64,000 nt of DNA, from the NCBI GenBank assembly GCA_017446095.1, contig JAFSRN010000005.1, forward strand, positions 1-64,000, in the 5' to 3' direction. The position numbers were made by a program, and so were the translations under genes. Of this stretch, positions 21,290 to 27,552 are shown piece by piece (within the stretch, counting starts at the first letter, position 1; each line of letters begins with the position of its first letter). The notes beneath the pieces were generated by a model that ran no database searches, was not told the origin of the DNA, and saw only the letters and a program-made list of their open reading frames with translations. This DNA comes from Eubacterium sp. (GTDB lineage Bacteria > Bacillota > Clostridia > Oscillospirales > Acutalibacteraceae).

Positions 21290-22445
21290 GTTTTTCAGGT
21301 GGCTCATCGGGTTTGTGCAGTTCAGGTTTGAGGGCGGCTTTGCGGACGGCTTTATAAACGATTGCTATATGCAGCAGCTTGCAGTGCGCGATTTGCACTA
21401 CGACGGCGACGTGCTGTGCGCCGAATGTCCTGCCTCGCAGTATCTGCGGTTCTGCCGCACGGCAAAACGCCACGGCGGACGGCTGCAAATCGTAAAAAAA
21501 CGGGGGATAGTGTTCCCGTTTCTCAAGCTCAGAAACCGCTTCGGTCTGGCGGTCGGCGCGCTGCTGTTTGTGGTTATACTCAGCTTTCTGTCGGGCTTCA
21601 TCTGGGAGGTTCAGGTAGTCGGCAACAGCAGGATTACGGACGCCGAGCTGCGCGATTTCCTTATGCAAAACGGCGTGTACGAGGGCGTTTACTGGGGTAC
21701 GGTTGACAAGGACAAGGTCGAAAATCTGATTATGGCGTCGTTTGACGACTGCGCCTGGGTGCACATAAACGAGCTTGGCACAACCGCGCGCGTTGAGATT
21801 AACGAAACTCGCAAGCCCCCTGCGAGAAAAAGGAAGAAAAAGGGCGTGTATAACGTTGTTGCCGCGCAGGACGGCTTCATCGCAAAAATCACCGTGGCAA
21901 ACGGCAAATCGGCGGCGCGCGTGGGCGATTTTGTCAGCAAGGGCGATGTGCTGATTAACGGCGTTTACACCGATATTTACGGCAAAAAACACCGCGTTCA
22001 CGCCGACGGCGAGGTTACGGCGCAGGTCACCGAGCCGTTTGAAATTGTGGTTAACCGCACGCAGAGCAGCCTTGCCGTTGCAAGCGAAAAGGAGTACAAA
22101 ACCCTTGCGTTTTTCGGGCTGTATATTCCGCTGTACCTCGGCAGCGCCGACCTCAAAAACGCCGATTGCAAAACATCAAGCGACTACCTCAAAGTCAACG
22201 AAAAGCCTGTTCCCGTGGGCGTTATCACGCTTACCGCGCGCAGGTACAGGAACATTCCGCAGTCGCTCACCGACCGCGAGCTTGCACGCCTTGCGGAGAG
22301 TGAAACGGCAAAGAAACTAAAATCCGACTACGCCGATTGCACCGTAATCAGCAAAAGGCTGACCACGGAAATCACTGCCGACAGCGCAATAGTTAAAGGG
22401 CAGATAACCTGCGTAAAGAATATAGCCAAAGAGAAAAAAGAGTGA
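21282..22445 (+). CDS. yqfD: Stage IV-type sporulation protein YqfD
   Basis: The 387-residue protein matches YqfD: a short N-terminal domain, one membrane helix (~residues 88-108, GLAVGALLFVVILSFLSGFIW), then the POTRA-like VQVVGNSRITDAELRDFL and a long beta-rich extracytoplasmic part with EINETRKPP. Bacillus yqfD is a forespore-engulfment-related gene of the SigE regulon. Overlap with yqfC and the usual order yqfC-yqfD support the call. A terminator follows directly. Confidence 0.9.
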   Translation: MVRFFRWLIGFVQFRFEGGFADGFINDCYMQQLAVRDLHYDGDVLCAECPASQYLRFCRTAKRHGGRLQIVKKRGIVFPFLKLRNRFGLAVGALLFVVILSFLSGFIWEVQVVGNSRITDAELRDFLMQNGVYEGVYWGTVDKDKVENLIMASFDDCAWVHINELGTTARVEINETRKPPARKRKKKGVYNVVAAQDGFIAKITVANGKSAARVGDFVSKGDVLINGVYTDIYGKKHRVHADGEVTAQVTEPFEIVVNRTQSSLAVASEKEYKTLAFFGLYIPLYLGSADLKNADCKTSSDYLKVNEKPVPVGVITLTARRYRNIPQSLTDRELARLAESETAKKLKSDYADCTVISKRLTTEITADSAIVKGQITCVKNIAKEKKE

Positions 22446-22460
22446 GCACCACTCTTTTTT
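22435..22460 (+). terminator. Terminator of yqfCD
   Basis: Stem AAAGAGTG/CACTCTTT overlapping the yqfD stop codon, followed by a T-run. Confidence 0.8.
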
Positions 22461-22495
22461 TACTGCATAAATATAATATTAATTACAAATATATG

Positions 22496-22524
22496 TTGTG
22501 TGCGGCGAAAAAATGTGGTATCAT
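22496..22524 (+). promoter_or_regulatory. Promoter of the DUF2997-Ycf46-Ycf35 operon
   Basis: -35 TTGTGT (22496-22501), -10 TATCAT (22519-22524), 17-bp spacer, 34 bp ahead of the first ATG. Confidence 0.6.
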
Positions 22525-22558
22525 AAAAGGGTATTATTTTTTAAAATGGAGGGTAAAA

Positions 22559-22762
22559 ATGAAGCAGATTAAAATCAAGATTTCGCCCGACGGCAGAATC
22601 GAAGCGGAAACCTTTGGCATGAAGGGCAAGCAGTGCCTTAAATATATTGCCGAAATGGAACGCCTTGCAAACGCCGTTTGCGATGATTCCGAGTTTACCA
22701 AAGAGTATTACGAAACCCCCGAAATACTCACCCAGGAAACTGAACAGGAGGTAACCGCATAA
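22559..22762 (+). CDS. DUF2997 family small protein
   Basis: A 67-residue protein of unknown function. The sequence shows the family layout: a beta hairpin IKIKISPDGRIEAETFGMKG, a Cys (KQCLKYIAEMERL), and the acidic EYYETPE tail. DUF2997 proteins in cyanobacteria and other bacteria are neighbours of Ycf46-like ATPases and DUF1257 proteins, as here. The frame opens upstream, but the ATG at 22559 follows GGAGGG ideally. It is joined to the next gene by TAATG, so the two are translationally coupled. Confidence 0.8.
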   Translation: MKQIKIKISPDGRIEAETFGMKGKQCLKYIAEMERLANAVCDDSEFTKEYYETPEILTQETEQEVTA

Positions 22763-23958
22763 TGGCAAAGAACCAACAGGCAGCCACACCTAAAAGTCAA
22801 GTTTTGACTACCGGCGACAAAGCGCTGATCTTCTTATCCTTTATTCCTATTGTTAACTCGATTGCCTTGTTCCATATGAACAACAGGACGCTTAACAAAA
22901 AATGGAAACGCAACGCATGGATTTTCTTGTTTATGAACATTGTCTTCTTCATCACGTTTTTTATTACGGATTTTGCAGCTGAAGTAAATTATGTTAATGT
23001 TCCCGATGAACCCATTGGCAAACCTGATTCCACGTTAGTTGTAGCACCCGATGTGCCAACATACGGAAACGAACCGAATGTATACGATTATATTCCTGAG
23101 GCAGAAGCCGGCGACATACTCAACGGAAAGTTTAAAGACGACTCCAGATATGCTGAGTATAAGGCTGCGCACGATAAGTGGGAAGAGGAAGAAGAAGCGT
23201 ATAAAAAATCCGACCAGTATAAAAAGGATTACGCAGAATACGAAAAAGAATATAAAGAGTATGAAAAGAAGCAAGCTGAATATGATAAGGCTGTAGCAGA
23301 ATACGAAAGCACGTCTGAATACAAAGCATATAAAGAGGCAGACGACAAGAATGACCGCATTCAGTCAATAGTCGCCGGAATTTCGGCAGGTTTATTTATG
23401 GCGTGGGTAATTGTTAATCCTGTTGCCTTTTGCTATGTCGTTTCGCAAAAACGCAAGTATGAGTATCTGTTAAGGCAGGACGGCAAAAAGGATGCAGCAA
23501 TGTCAAGGCTTGCAGGTAACGGTTTCGCACAGCAGGCAGCACCGCAAACATTTACGCAGCCGCAGCCGCAGCAGGCACCGCCTGCAAACTACGGTCAGCC
23601 GCAGGGTTATGCGCAGCCGCAACCGCAACAGCAGATGAACTTCACTCAGCCTGCACCGCAGCAGCAGTATCAGCAGCCGCCTGTTCAGCAGGCAGCACCG
23701 CAGGGCGCGCTTGATATCAACAGCGCCACAGAGGACGAAATCGCTGCGCTTCCCGGTCTTACCATTATCGATGCAAGGCGCGCAGTTGCCTACCGCAACG
23801 AAAACGGCGGCTTTGCAAACACCGACGCGTTCTTTGAGGCTATTTCGGCTAAACCGCACATTATGGTTAAGATTCAGCCCATGATTACCGCGTCCGCGCC
23901 GCAGCCCAAGCCGACTAACGAGCCGAGCGGCAGCGGCAGGAGAATGATTGACCTTTAA
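22762..23958 (+). CDS. Membrane protein with Glu/Lys/Tyr-rich coiled coil, Pro/Gln linker and C-terminal helix-hairpin-helix
   Basis: Not a recognised named family. Order of parts in 398 residues: N-terminal soluble stretch; two close hydrophobic segments (~25-70); an extracytoplasmic region (~75-205) ending in a charged Tyr/Glu/Lys coiled coil; a third hydrophobic segment (~207-235); a Pro/Gln-rich linker (~255-315); a ComEA-like helix-hairpin-helix (LDINSATEDEIAALPGLTII, then AVAYRNENGGF); a basic tail. The HhH suggests DNA or protein binding on the cytosolic side. It sits inside the Ycf46/Ycf35 operon with TAATG junctions on both sides, so it probably localises this system to the membrane (inference). 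Confidence 0.75.
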   Translation: MAKNQQAATPKSQVLTTGDKALIFLSFIPIVNSIALFHMNNRTLNKKWKRNAWIFLFMNIVFFITFFITDFAAEVNYVNVPDEPIGKPDSTLVVAPDVPTYGNEPNVYDYIPEAEAGDILNGKFKDDSRYAEYKAAHDKWEEEEEAYKKSDQYKKDYAEYEKEYKEYEKKQAEYDKAVAEYESTSEYKAYKEADDKNDRIQSIVAGISAGLFMAWVIVNPVAFCYVVSQKRKYEYLLRQDGKKDAAMSRLAGNGFAQQAAPQTFTQPQPQQAPPANYGQPQGYAQPQPQQQMNFTQPAPQQQYQQPPVQQAAPQGALDINSATEDEIAALPGLTIIDARRAVAYRNENGGFANTDAFFEAISAKPHIMVKIQPMITASAPQPKPTNEPSGSGRRMIDL

Positions 23959-24542
23959 TGCAAATTAACAGAATTGTTGAAAAAACGCAGGCGGAGGGTC
24001 CCGGCGTACGCTTTAGCATCTGGGTGCAGGGTTGTTCCCACAGGTGCAAGGGCTGCTTTGCAACCGATTTGTGGGATAAAAACGGCGGCACAGAGATGAC
24101 GGCAGAGGACATCATCGGCAAAATGAAAAGTGTTCTGCCTGCCGTGCGCGGCGTTACGCTGCTGGGCGGCGAGCCGTTTGAGCAGGCTGCCGGGCTTGCA
24201 AAGGTCGCGCAGTTTGCAAAAAGCAACGGGCTTGACGTTATAGCGTTTTCAGGCTATACATACGAGGAACTGCTTGCCGATTCCGCTAATTGCGAACTGC
24301 TTAAAAACGTCGATTTGCTGATTGACGGCAGGTATATGGCAGAGCAGCAGGACTTCTCCAGACCGCTTGTCGGTTCAAAAAATCAGCGGTTTATATATCT
24401 TACCGACGCCATTGCCAAAGCCGAAATTGACTGCTACAAAAACCGTTTTGAAATCCGCACCGACGAGAACGGCAAAGTTTACTTCAACGGCATGGGCAAC
24501 ATTGAAAAGCTTAAAGAATACACAAAAAAATTAAGGAGTTAA
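23958..24542 (+). CDS. Radical SAM activating-enzyme-like protein (NrdG type)
   Basis: A 194-residue protein with the radical SAM cluster motif C26-SHR-C30-KG-C33 and the SAM-binding GGE (LLGGEPFEQAAGL). Size and flow match small activases such as NrdG, which make a glycyl radical in anaerobic ribonucleotide reductase. No reductase gene is near. It lies between the HhH membrane protein and the AAA+ ATPase in a tightly packed operon, so its substrate is more likely one of these partners or a linked unknown protein. NrdG itself cannot be excluded. Confidence 0.82.
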   Translation: MQINRIVEKTQAEGPGVRFSIWVQGCSHRCKGCFATDLWDKNGGTEMTAEDIIGKMKSVLPAVRGVTLLGGEPFEQAAGLAKVAQFAKSNGLDVIAFSGYTYEELLADSANCELLKNVDLLIDGRYMAEQQDFSRPLVGSKNQRFIYLTDAIAKAEIDCYKNRFEIRTDENGKVYFNGMGNIEKLKEYTKKLRS

Positions 24543-24545
24543 AGA

Positions 24546-26174
24546 ATGAGCAACACTAAATTTATGCAGGATTTTTCCAATCTTGTTAACGCGGGCTTTC
24601 CGTACATATACATCCCTTCATATGAGGAAGAGCGCATCACAAACACCGTAACGGCTGTTATGGGCAACAACGAACTTGTTAAAGTTCCGAGGAAGCTTTA
24701 CAGCTGGACGCAGACCGACGGCCTTGTTTGCGAGGGCAACTTCCTGCGCGATACAGAGGCGCCGCTCAAAGCGATTGAAGCAATTGCAAAGAACAACGAG
24801 CCTGCCGTGTATCTGATGAAAGACTTCCACGTTTACTTCGGCGGCGACCGTACTTCGCGCCCCGACTATGCGGTTATCCGCCGTCTGCGCGACATTATTC
24901 CAACCCTCAAGGCTAACAGAAAAACCGTTGTGTTTATCTCGTCAAAGCTCGTTATCCCGTGCGATATGGAAAAAGAGATTTCCATCCTTGACTTCTCGCT
25001 TCCCACGGTTGACGATATCCAGGCGCTTCTGCTTGATTTAATCAGCGGACTCAACCCTGAAAACGTTAACCTCACGCAGGATGATATCGTTCTGCTTTCG
25101 CGTTCCGCGCTCGGTCTTACCCTTCAGGAGGCGGAAAACGCATTCTGCCGCGCAATTGTTAACCTCAGAGGGCTTGACAAAAGCGCAATCTCAATTATCC
25201 ACGAGGAAAAGAATCAGGTTGTAAAGAAAACGGGCGTGCTTGAATTTGTTAAGTCCGACCTTGATATCAACGACATCGGCGGTCTGGAAAACCTTAAAAC
25301 CTGGCTGCTGCGCAGAAACAACTCCTGGTCTGAAAAGGCAAAGGCTTACGGCTTGCCTGCACCCAAGGGCGTGCTGATTACCGGCGTTCCCGGCTGCGGT
25401 AAGTCGCTTACGGCAAAGGCTATGAGCGCAATCTGGGGACTTCCGCTTCTCAAACTCGATATGGGCAAGATTTTCGGCGGTATCGTCGGCAGCTCGGAGG
25501 AGAATATGCGCAAGGCTATCGCCACTGCGGAGGCTGTTTCGCCGTCTATCCTCTGGGTTGATGAGATTGAAAAGGGCTTTTCAGGTCTTAAGAGCGGCGG
25601 CGACTCGGGCACATCTGCCAGAGTTTTCGGCACCTTCCTCACCTGGATGCAGGAAAAAACAGAGCCCGTATTCGTAATCGCAACGGCAAACGACATCAGC
25701 TCGCTTCCGCCCGAGCTTCTGCGTAAGGGCAGATTTGACGAAATCTTTTTCGTTGACCTTCCTACCACGAACGAGCGCAAAAAGATTTTCAGCCTGCACA
25801 TCAACAAGCGCATCAAGAACTCCGTAATCCAGCACGAGATTGCTGTAAGCGACGAAGTTTGCACAGAGCTTGCAAACCTCACTGCAGGCTATGTTGGCGC
25901 GGAAATCGAGCAGATTGTTATCGCCGCTATGTACGAGGCATTTTATGCGGACAGAGGTCTGCGCAAAGAGGATATTGTTAAATCCATCAGGGAAACCGTT
26001 CCGCTTTCCGCAACGCAGCGCGAGCAGATTATCCAGCTTCGCGCATGGGCGCAGGAGAGGGCTGTGCTTGCAACTGCAGAGGACGACCGCGAGCAGTCGG
26101 AGAGTGAAGGCTCGGACGATGAGGGCAAGTTCCTCGGTTCGCAGGGCGGCAGAATCGTAGACTTTAATTTATAA
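24546..26174 (+). CDS. Ycf46-like AAA+ ATPase
   Basis: A 542-residue protein. The N-terminal ~230 residues are a degenerate P-loop-like domain beginning [14 protein letters not shown], typical of the Ycf46 group. The C-terminal AAA+ module has Walker A GVPGCGKS (residues 280-287), Walker [10 protein letters not shown] (~335-343), sensor VIATAND and the arginine-finger region [12 protein letters not shown] charged tail of ~50 residues ends [11 protein letters not shown]. Ycf46 of cyanobacteria has been linked to inorganic-carbon regulation, but the biochemical role is unknown. It starts 3 bp after the radical SAM gene and is followed by the DUF1257-like gene, its usual partner. Confidence 0.88.
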
Positions 26175-26186
26175 TCGGAGGGGCTT

Positions 26187-26654
26187 ATGTCAGTAGTACT
26201 TACTTTAACTTCCTGTGCCATCATCGCAGGTCTGTCAATCACGCAGACCGCGTCCATGGCGCTTATAGTGCAGGATAACGACGAGCTTGAGGAAAATATC
26301 AACGAAGGGCTTGAAACCCAGTTTGTTGATACCCAGATCCTGCTTAAAACCCTGCAGGGCTTCGACTGCCACTTCACGCAGGTTAACGAAAATCAGATTA
26401 ACGTGCAGACCACCTGCGGCAATCTGATTTATCAGCGCGGCGCTGTCGGCGAGGCGTACAAACTGTACCTTGACGAAATCAACGACGTTGAAGGACTTGT
26501 TCAGAACATCAGGTCGTTCGAGTTTGATTACGGCAGGAATGTGCAGGCGTACACCTACGACCATATCAAGAAAAACCTCACCGACGATATGACAATCGTC
26601 GAGGACGAGCTTCTTGAGGACGATTCGCTGTATCTTACAATTAATATTGAATAA
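26187..26654 (+). CDS. Ycf35/DUF1257-like protein
   Basis: A 155-residue protein, weakly similar to DUF1257 (Ycf35 of plastids and cyanobacteria): DTQILLKTLQGFDCHF corresponds to the N-terminal helix, GNLIYQRGAVGEAYKLYLDE to the middle strand-helix, and YGRNVQAYTYDHIKKNL to the conserved YAY-containing end. Here it carries an added N-terminal hydrophobic stretch (residues ~1-30) which may be a membrane anchor or signal. The last gene of the operon; a hairpin terminator follows. The assignment leans on gene order as well as on sequence. Confidence 0.65.
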   Translation: MSVVLTLTSCAIIAGLSITQTASMALIVQDNDELEENINEGLETQFVDTQILLKTLQGFDCHFTQVNENQINVQTTCGNLIYQRGAVGEAYKLYLDEINDVEGLVQNIRSFEFDYGRNVQAYTYDHIKKNLTDDMTIVEDELLEDDSLYLTINIE

Positions 26655-26655
26655 C

Positions 26656-26683
26656 AAAAAGCCTTCCCCTCGAGGGAAGGCTT
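26656..26683. terminator. Terminator after the Ycf46/Ycf35 operon
   Basis: Stem AAGCCTTCCC/GGGAAGGCTT around a short loop. It resembles the end arm of the 133-bp palindrome and abuts the mosaic repeat. Confidence 0.6.
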
Positions 26684-26855
26684 AAGTTTTGAGTTTTGAG
26701 TTTTAAGTTTTAAGCTATTGGGTGGACTTCGTCCACACCTGATTATATTGCGGACGACCAATGGTCGTCCCTACGGTTGTAGGGGTCGGCGTCCCCGACG
26801 ACCCGTTTATTGTCCGAGGCGTAAGCCGAGTAACCGCAAGCTTAAAACTTAAAAC
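26684..26855. repeat. Dispersed intergenic mosaic repeat, reverse orientation
   Basis: Tract GAGTTTTGAGTTTTAAG, module GGGTGGACTTCGTCCACACC, hairpins GGACGACCAATGGTCGTCC and GGGTCGGCGTCCCCGACGACCC, module TTATTGTCCGAGGCGTAAGCCGAGTAACC, then tract TTAAAACTTAAAAC. Nearly the same series occurs at 47285-47541, where it is split by a 62-bp insert. Confidence 0.85.
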
Positions 26856-26856
26856 A

Positions 26857-26881
26857 AAAAGGACGGTCACCCCGTCCTTTT
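26857..26881 (-). terminator. Terminator of the TM2 gene
   Basis: Stem AAAAGGACGG/CCGTCCTTTT with a 5-nt loop. Read on the minus strand it ends in a T-run. Confidence 0.75.
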
Positions 26882-26890
26882 ACTTATGTA

Positions 26891-27490
26891 TTATTCTTCC
26901 GTTTCTTCTTCCTTGGACTCTTTGATTGCTCTTGCAATTGATTCCTCAAAGGTCATAATCTTGTAGCCGTTTGCGTCCATATCGTTCTTTTCGGTGAACA
27001 TAAGTGTTGCTTCAACGAGCGCCCAAGTCCACGATACAAAGAAGCCGAGGCCGAACAAAAGCGAGCCGAGCACGCATACAAGCAGCTGCGCAAGACCTTT
27101 GTTGTTGTTGCCGAGGTAGAAGTTGTGCACGCCAATCGGGCCAAGCACTACCGCAAGGATAACTGCAACTAACTTCTTCTTAATCCTGTAGCCCTCGGGG
27201 TAATCTGTTCTTGCCACAACGGGCATAACAAGCTGCATCGGCTGCATTGGCTGCATCGGCTGCTGCGGCGGTGTGTAATAGTTCTGCTCTGCGCCTGCAA
27301 CGGGCGGTGTGTAGTAAGCCTCCTGCGCGGGTGCGTATTGCTGCTGCGGCTGTGGTTGCGGCTGTGGCTGCGGTTGCGGTGCCTGCTGCGGCTGTTCTGC
27401 AGGTGCAGGTGCTGCGTTGGCGTTTACTGTTGCTGCGCAGGTGCAAACTTCACCCTCTGCAAGCTCTTTTCCGCAATTCGGACAATTCAT
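26891..27490 (-). CDS. TM2-domain membrane protein with zinc ribbon and Pro/Gln linker
   Basis: 199 residues. Order: a zinc-ribbon start NCPNCGKELAEGEVCTC, a Pro/Gln/Ala low-complexity linker (~25-100) with repeated PQPQPQ and QPMQPM, then a TM2 domain: KKKLVAVILAVVLGPIGVHNFYLGN, a short loop and a second helix (LLVCVLGSLLFGLGFFVSWTW). An acidic tail follows. TM2 proteins have no settled role in bacteria. The frame opens at 27532, but the ATG at 27490 follows AAAGGAG (27499-27505) and encodes the ribbon start. Divergent from hrcA. Confidence 0.82.
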   Translation of the reverse strand: MNCPNCGKELAEGEVCTCAATVNANAAPAPAEQPQQAPQPQPQPQPQPQQQYAPAQEAYYTPPVAGAEQNYYTPPQQPMQPMQPMQLVMPVVARTDYPEGYRIKKKLVAVILAVVLGPIGVHNFYLGNNNKGLAQLLVCVLGSLLFGLGFFVSWTWALVEATLMFTEKNDMDANGYKIMTFEESIARAIKESKEEETEE

Positions 27491-27523
27491 AAAGACATCT
27501 CCTTTAATATTTATTTCCACTAT

Positions 27524-27552
27524 ATAATACACCTTTGCCGAATAGGTGTCAA
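27524..27552 (-). promoter_or_regulatory. Promoter of the TM2 gene
   Basis: Minus strand -35 TTGACA (27547-27552), -10 TATTAT (27524-27529), 17-bp spacer. Confidence 0.8.

Follow-up and report, generated by a model that had tools for sequence, protein, structure and literature searches.

The question raised by the first 64,000 nucleotides of contig JAFSRN010000005.1 of Eubacterium sp. (assembly GCA_017446095.1; this whole stretch is called the window below) is what joins a AAA+ ATPase in one compact operon with four other proteins, of which one belongs to DUF2997, one is a membrane protein bearing a helix-hairpin-helix (HhH) domain, one is a radical SAM protein resembling NrdG and one is a diverged relative of DUF1257 (Table 1). 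An original prediction, made from the letters of the DNA, had proposed these five genes as a system; it contained neither the shared C-terminal tail that we describe here nor the spread of the genes far beyond Clostridia. Our searches showed that the module is real and widespread, and that one C-terminal tail, R-x-[ILV]-[DE]-hydrophobic-COOH, is common to the AAA+ proteins and the unrelated HhH proteins of such loci, a new and testable observation. In what we regard as an evenly balanced judgement, we propose that the operon encodes a membrane-attached AAA+ machine that would remodel or place its partners, these bearing a common C-terminal address that the machine would read.

A C-terminal tail shared by AAA+ and HhH proteins

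The tail was counted with a strict pattern (terminal R-x-[ILVMFAT]-[DE]-[FLIVMWY]), and the profile used to find the HhH proteins was seeded without it. In loci with HhH genes the strict tail was present in 66 of 68 HhH proteins and in 47 of 53 AAA+ proteins, or in 50 of these 53 if up to two extra residues are allowed. Among the other open reading frames (ORFs), called mechanically on both strands of all loci scored, it was present in 13 of 9841 of at least 60 residues (most of these 9841 not being real genes) and in 7 of 2948 of at least 150 residues. Ordinary HhH proteins served as a control: a search with an HhH profile was dominated by ComEA-like proteins, with matches in 373 of 398 phylum genomes, and among the 25 readable frames of the 30 best matches the tail was found in the window's own protein and in 0 of the other 24. 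When the HhH proteins were clustered at 40%, all members were tailed in 25 of 27 clusters. Their tails have R at position -5 (97%), V, L or I at -3 (92%) and D at -2 (92%), and are unconserved upstream of -7. In the window the HhH protein ends RMIDL and the AAA+ protein ends GGRIVDFNL, i.e., GGRIVDF plus two extra residues; the latter is one of six AAA+ proteins missing the strict form, the others being those of L038 (two extra residues), L040 (one extra residue), L048 (at a contig end), and L072 and L075 (differing tails; loci are cited by our own numbers).

As four of the 13 other tailed ORFs adjoin a AAA+ gene (in L070, L074, L081 and L092) and none of them is HhH-labelled, the tail occurs also without the HhH domain and is not tied to it. 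By reading only, these four resemble membrane proteins; the one at L070:7809-8546, with the tail GRRLDV, has a Mrr_cat nuclease domain (3.4e-21) and an N-terminal part that likewise reads as membrane-like. L070 and L081 have an HhH-labelled gene as well; no HhH gene was found in L074 and L092, so the tailed ORFs there may stand in for the HhH protein. In the genome of the window the strict pattern gave a single match, which lies within no ORF of at least 80 residues. A looser pattern gave 35 matches there, of which 31 loci were read (including the strict-pattern L198; three end in TGG without a stop codon): the longest ORFs were of 502 residues, ending SFFDM with no Arg, and of 66 residues, ending RFIDF (L214), the rest being of at most 26 residues from the start. 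The four matches outside those read are the HhH protein itself and three others, one of which ends in TGG. The 66-residue ORF of L214 is probably spurious.

Distribution of the five families

A survey of genome contigs took the loci of the best 80 of 555 relatives; all five families were together in 41 of these 80, with gene order shuffled, in seven named phyla: Bacillota (7), Melainabacteria (9), Actinomycetota (13), Bacteroidota (2), and Planctomycetota, Armatimonadota and Fusobacteriota (1 each), a further 7 loci having no named phylum. The inclusion of the HhH membrane protein in the set by the original prediction is supported. Outside this survey the complete set was seen in 4 of 9 loci from whole genomes or the window, in 2 of 8 from plasmids and in 1 of 83 viral loci, and the AAA+, DUF1257 and DUF2997 genes together in 29 of the 83 viral ones. 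Plasmids of Paenarthrobacter and Rhodococcus have a cyclic permutation of the order (AAA+, gene 5, DUF2997, HhH, radical SAM). L118, a contig from a viral collection, has a complete five-gene set, with 56% identity in the AAA+ protein.

DUF2997 was found in 4 of 100 genomes of the same family (own included), each of which carries the five genes in one and the same arrangement; the conserved gene content expected by the original prediction was thus recovered in three others among 99 family relatives. With DUF2997 alone scored, the phylum sample had it in 8 of its 398 genomes (own included). In the class sample (291 genomes, E≤1e-60) the AAA+ protein was matched in seven, the window's genome among them; in the fetched stretches two of these seven have all five families, two have a DUF1257-DUF2997 fusion and three have the AAA+ gene alone. 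In Mantel tests against AAA+ distances over 47 loci, the distances of the radical SAM (r 0.852), DUF1257-like (0.836), DUF2997 (0.825) and HhH (0.689) proteins were all correlated (p 0.001 each), as plain shared descent would also make them.

Properties of the individual proteins

The phrog_8638 match to the AAA+ protein spans residues 4–517. Its active module lies at about 236–480 and has an intact ATPase site: the Walker A and Walker B (DE) motifs, the sensor 1 residue N382 and the arginine fingers (R393/R396) are 97–100% conserved over 167 rows. Because no P-loop is visible in the N-terminal half and this half aligns with the AAA module (probability 61.5, E 7.8e-5), a first AAA module has probably degenerated there. 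The label "Ycf46-like" is that of the original prediction; our comparison covered cyanobacterial plasmid relatives encoded near DUF1257 and DUF2997 (42–43% identical). On the operon, matches to PADLOC models were partial and concerned IetA, pVip and mad8.

The first gene of the operon was placed in DUF2997, as predicted, by a PF11211 score of 50.3 bits (gathering cut-off 24.1), and its product has the family's G-x-x-C (Gly23, Cys26), the Cys column being invariant in 103 of 103 aligned rows; three copies outside this alignment have no Cys (second copies in L124 and L125, and that of L025). Gene 5, which had been called DUF1257-like, gave no Pfam match at E≤1, and PF06868 was also unmatched genome-wide at E≤0.001. 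Its family aligns to DUF1257 by hhalign (probability 95.8, E 6.6e-9, 107 columns), and on this alignment it is a distant DUF1257 relative outside Pfam membership, the earlier assignment holding as profile-profile homology and failing as a match to PF06868. The extra hydrophobic N-terminus predicted for this protein was seen by hydropathy (residues 1–19), ahead of a folded domain at about 41–155 (AlphaFold2, mean predicted local distance difference test 84.6). Sequence searches of the PDB with DUF1257 and DUF2997 gave no relative below E 0.016; a viral fold library likewise gave nothing at E≤0.001. One or more hydrophobic segments were found anywhere in the DUF1257-like ORF in 41 of 51 HhH loci versus 10 of 34 others (p 4e-6, uncorrected for kinship, with possibly misplaced starts in some ORFs). 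In six loci (L042, L043, L045, L049, L051 and L052) the DUF1257-like proteins are of ~420 residues with a long N-terminal extension; that of L049, the sole one scanned, had no Pfam match over cut-off. Natural DUF1257-DUF2997 fusions in L015, L016 and L121 suggest that the two proteins touch each other, and in Pseudanabaena both are encoded near grpE and an Hsp70 gene.

The HhH protein of the window has hydrophobic segments at 21–39, 54–72 and 200–218 (hydropathy), with a hydrophilic stretch between segments, followed by a Q/P-rich linker, the HHH_3 domain (317–357) and the tail. At least one hydrophobic segment is present in 63 of 68 HhH proteins, and positive charge is greater after the last segment than before it in 32 of 51, the reverse holding in 11, a bias that suggests a cytosolic HhH domain. 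Seven HhH genes stand at L044:1290-6332, with N-terminal parts 17–55% identical, HhH domains 48–82% identical and the tail in 7 of 7, and 10 of 53 HhH loci have at least two HhH genes; with such variable N-terminal parts on a constant HhH domain and tail, these proteins resemble an exchangeable payload joined to an unchanging docking end.

The radical SAM protein has CX3CX2C at C26/C30/C33 and a Fer4_12 domain, which place it in that superfamily, and its three cluster Cys are invariant in 51 of 51 aligned rows. It is the genome's best NrdG match (123 bits), and scored 122.8 bits against the equivalog model TIGR02491, just short of the cut-off of 126.1. A search of the genome for the glycyl-radical domain PF01228 found none; NrdD was found instead under PF13597, its gene lying on another contig next to a same-strand radical SAM gene (230 residues, NrdG match 43 bits). 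We judged a role as NrdD activase unlikely for the operon's protein, as nrdD has this activase-like neighbour of its own; the neighbour appears the likelier activase, for which reason the operon's protein seems free for another job.

Contractile injection loci and a possible second terminal motif

In two loci of Spirochaetes (L095 and L105) radical SAM, AAA+ and DUF2997 genes are found among sheath, tube and baseplate-type genes, and in a third (L029) radical SAM and AAA+ genes are beside a baseplate gene. The genome of the window had no CIS_tube match, in a search that matched no control genome either. L095 and L105 also encode a 139- or 138-residue protein ending RFSNLEL or RFGKLEMD, which resembles the AAA+ tails VRQLELNK and YRKIEMK. 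In loci without HhH genes a terminal RF..[LI]E, a motif picked post hoc, was present in 12 of 865 genes near the AAA+ gene versus 2 of 1175 far from it or on the other strand (p 0.0015); in HhH loci it was present in 0 of 312 genes near the AAA+ gene. We treat this motif of other partners as only a lead. Pfam identified a double zinc ribbon in the RF..[LI]E proteins of L090 and L102, and nothing in that of L114. Proteins adjacent to the AAA+ gene and bearing an N-terminal RFxxLE were seen in L079, L088, L090, L101, L102, L106, L109 and L114; those other than the three scanned include some that are TPR-like by reading.

Proposed mechanism and alternative explanations

In the mechanism that we propose, a AAA+ ring with a DUF1257/DUF2997 adaptor pair would recognise the tail on membrane partners, and the partners so tagged would be pulled on, assembled or relocated by the ring. 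The receptor of the partners' tails would also accept that of the ATPase itself, and the NrdG-like radical SAM protein would modify some component of the set. We liken the placing role to the handling of signal-tagged cargo by Pvc15. From the functional model of the original prediction this keeps a AAA+ motor with small partners; a radical SAM enzyme modifying the remodelled target and an HhH protein serving as tether are hypothetical parts of it. A bolder version, which we think improbable as a whole, would have the radical SAM enzyme put a chemical mark on tails of the form R-x-[ILV]-[DE]-hydrophobic; a Ycf46-type AAA+ ring would read the marked tails through its DUF1257-DUF2997 adaptor and so handle swappable membrane effectors, and phages and injection systems would have reused the arrangement.

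In cellular loci the tail is associated with the HhH and radical SAM genes when the loci are clustered at 70% (p 4e-9 and 8e-8, respectively) or 60% (p 4e-4 and 3e-3). A number of results weigh against a common address read by the machine. The window's own AAA+ tail carries the two extra residues; at 50% clustering (n=7) the association gave p 0.14 for HhH and p 0.43 for radical SAM, and too few phylogenetically independent pairs were available (for HhH, 3 in the same direction, 0 opposite and 1 without a difference; for radical SAM, about 4 in the same direction and 0.4 opposite of 10, median p 0.125). No co-variation between the tails of AAA+ proteins and partners was seen within HhH loci (p 0.53) or the remaining cellular loci (p 0.37), and only a weak one in viruses (p 0.04). 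Where cellular loci have no HhH gene, the AAA+ protein has the strict tail in 6 of 46, a count that rises to 11 if one or two extra residues are allowed. Finally, in the stretches fetched for viral loci DUF1257 is present in 5 of 33 tailed versus 27 of 50 untailed loci, and DUF2997 is missing in 29 of the 33 tailed ones; as tailed viral loci are mostly without these two proteins, they would not be the sole readers and the AAA+ protein may itself be the reader of the tail.

We considered four alternatives. The tail might instead be the part of the AAA+ and HhH proteins that the radical SAM enzyme modifies (e.g., at Gly or Arg), the AAA+ protein presenting or releasing the modified protein. NrdG-type enzymes target a glycine near a C-terminus, which would suit this explanation, as would the G at -6 (88%) and -7 (83%) of the AAA+ proteins in HhH loci and the radical SAM gene in 31 of 36 tailed versus 5 of 27 untailed cellular clusters (70% identity). 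However, the HhH proteins have G at -6 in 51% and E in 32%, the fetched stretches contain no radical SAM gene in 31 of the 33 viral loci with a tail and in 5 of the 11 cellular loci that have a tail but no HhH gene, and the association of this gene with the tail is not significant in independent pairs. We regard this explanation as doubtful.

Somewhat less probable still, in our view, is an anti-phage system in which the AAA+ core would sense infection and free tail-bearing membrane or nuclease effectors. It draws on the patchy presence of the genes (DUF2997 in 4 of 100 family genomes), their plasmid copies, the Mrr-type nuclease domain of one tailed partner, the variable tandem partners and the IetA-like AAA domain (5.9e-22 to the PADLOC model), as well as on some PADLOC matches among 93 flanking proteins (loci L038–L076). 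At 1e-10 these 93 proteins matched 58 PADLOC families, the 25 listed including mad3 (6), mad8 (3), AriA (2) and others with one each (raw counts), whereas their commonest Pfam families were transporters, EPSP synthase and the like (MFS 5, ABC 5, EPSP synthase 3, ATP synthase 2, also GTPases). Also against a defence role, 29 of the 83 viral loci themselves carry AAA+, DUF1257 and DUF2997 genes. There is no clear sign of a defence island around the sampled loci, with which a defence role remains compatible.

A ComEA-like DNA uptake apparatus, with the HhH protein binding DNA at the membrane and the AAA+ protein driving uptake, is in our estimation very unlikely. It would account for the HHH_3 match and for the hydrophobic segments of the 63 HhH proteins, but the match to ComEA is weak (NCBIfam comE 25.3 bits, far under the cut-off of 152.35) and the charge bias suggests that the HhH domain is cytosolic. 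DNA-binding HhH domains typically have GIG in the hairpin, whereas the second hairpin reads PH in our alignment and the first is eroded in some members. Least credible of all is that the operon serves ribonucleotide reduction through a conventional NrdG activase, its other genes being mere passengers: although its radical SAM protein is the genome's best NrdG match, it scores under the cut-off, nrdD lies elsewhere with its own adjacent radical SAM gene (itself a weaker NrdG match), and the radical SAM gene accompanies AAA+ and DUF2997 genes across many phyla.

Operon architecture and setting

All five predicted ORFs were found, as were the junctions claimed for them: by their coordinates there are TAATG overlaps at DUF2997/HhH and HhH/radical SAM, and a 3-bp gap at radical SAM/AAA+. 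The operon is flanked on one side by sporulation-type yqfC and yqfD (scores under their NCBIfam cut-offs) and on the other by hrcA-grpE-dnaK (grpE and dnaK named from reading and homology); a genome of the same genus had no operon gene within 12 kb around hrcA. The single promoter of the original prediction was not recovered, as a sigma-70 scan of 22300–26950 listed none on the + strand ahead of 22559. The terminator predicted at the operon end has a counterpart in a hairpin, though a consensus terminator scan places that hairpin on the - strand only; the upstream hairpin, identified by folding, overlaps yqfD at its end. The interval from the operon to hrcA contains, on the - strand at 26891–27532, a gene for a small membrane-type protein with a P/Q-rich N-terminal part and no NCBIfam match.

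Table 1. Coordinates in the window of the operon's genes, the HhH tail and the flanking hairpins
Feature	Coordinates	Strand	Basis
Hairpin ahead of the operon, U-rich in its 3' arm, probable terminator	22433..22461	+	-13 kcal/mol, z -4.9
DUF2997 protein, 67 residues	22559..22762	+	PF11211 2.2e-13, above curated cut-off
Membrane protein with HhH domain, 398 residues	22762..23958	+	HHH_3 4.3e-9, hydropathy, tail
C-terminal tail R-M-I-D-L of the HhH protein, codons preceding stop	23941..23955	+	
NrdG-like radical SAM protein, 194 residues	23958..24542	+	Fer4_12 2.8e-36
AAA+ ATPase, 542 residues	24546..26174	+	AAA (PF00004) 9.4e-30; phrog_8638 7.8e-142
Divergent DUF1257 protein (gene 5), 155 residues	26187..26654	+	hhalign to DUF1257, hydropathy
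Hairpin 3' of last gene, possible terminator	26659..26683	+	fold z -2.8

Comparison with known systems

DUF2997 and DUF1257 are annotated as of unknown function, and a tail found on unrelated proteins offers a concrete handle on them, as it predicts binding partners. It also points to tailed proteins without an HhH domain, and can be tested by five-residue mutants. In those parts of the literature that were searched there was no description of the five-gene set apart from the DUF2997/DUF1257/fed7 cluster.

In the IetAS defence pair the partner of IetA is subtilisin-like; IetA has the related AAA domain noted above, whereas our operon is without a subtilisin-like partner and has another gene set. 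ClpX is an AAA+ unfoldase to which ssrA-type C-terminal tags and adaptors address proteins. A short C-terminal peptide as an address to a AAA+ protein is what we propose here as well; unlike in that system, the AAA+ protein itself bears the peptide, and the five-gene set is without a peptidase gene.

In red-algal plastids ycf35 and ycf46 survive, and are reported to be among the genes jointly absent from the freshwater species studied (PMC5940233); that paper treats the ycf genes as conserved hypothetical. Cyanobacteria have a DUF2997-ycf35(DUF1257)-fed7 cluster, in which Fed7, itself a [4Fe-4S] protein, has a DnaJ-like protein as binding partner (PMC4284462). As in our operon, DUF2997 and DUF1257 are there paired with a [4Fe-4S] protein; however, this is a ferredoxin in place of a radical SAM protein, and in the available part of that paper the cluster is described without a AAA+ or HhH gene. 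The available part of the Pvc15 paper (PMC11495950) mentions no DUF1257, DUF2997, HhH or radical SAM partner, and Pvc15 further differs in having an extra N domain and in reading N-terminal signals. If our proposal is true, the genes described here would encode a terminal-tag AAA+ machine spanning bacteria, plasmids, phages and contractile injection clusters. Pvc15 resembles such a machine in having an inactive first module (D1) and an active second one (D2, the ATPase), and in a terminal signal on its partners, cargo loading requiring a terminal signal peptide (PMC11495950); in Spirochaetes, contractile injection clusters also include radical SAM and AAA+ genes like those described here.

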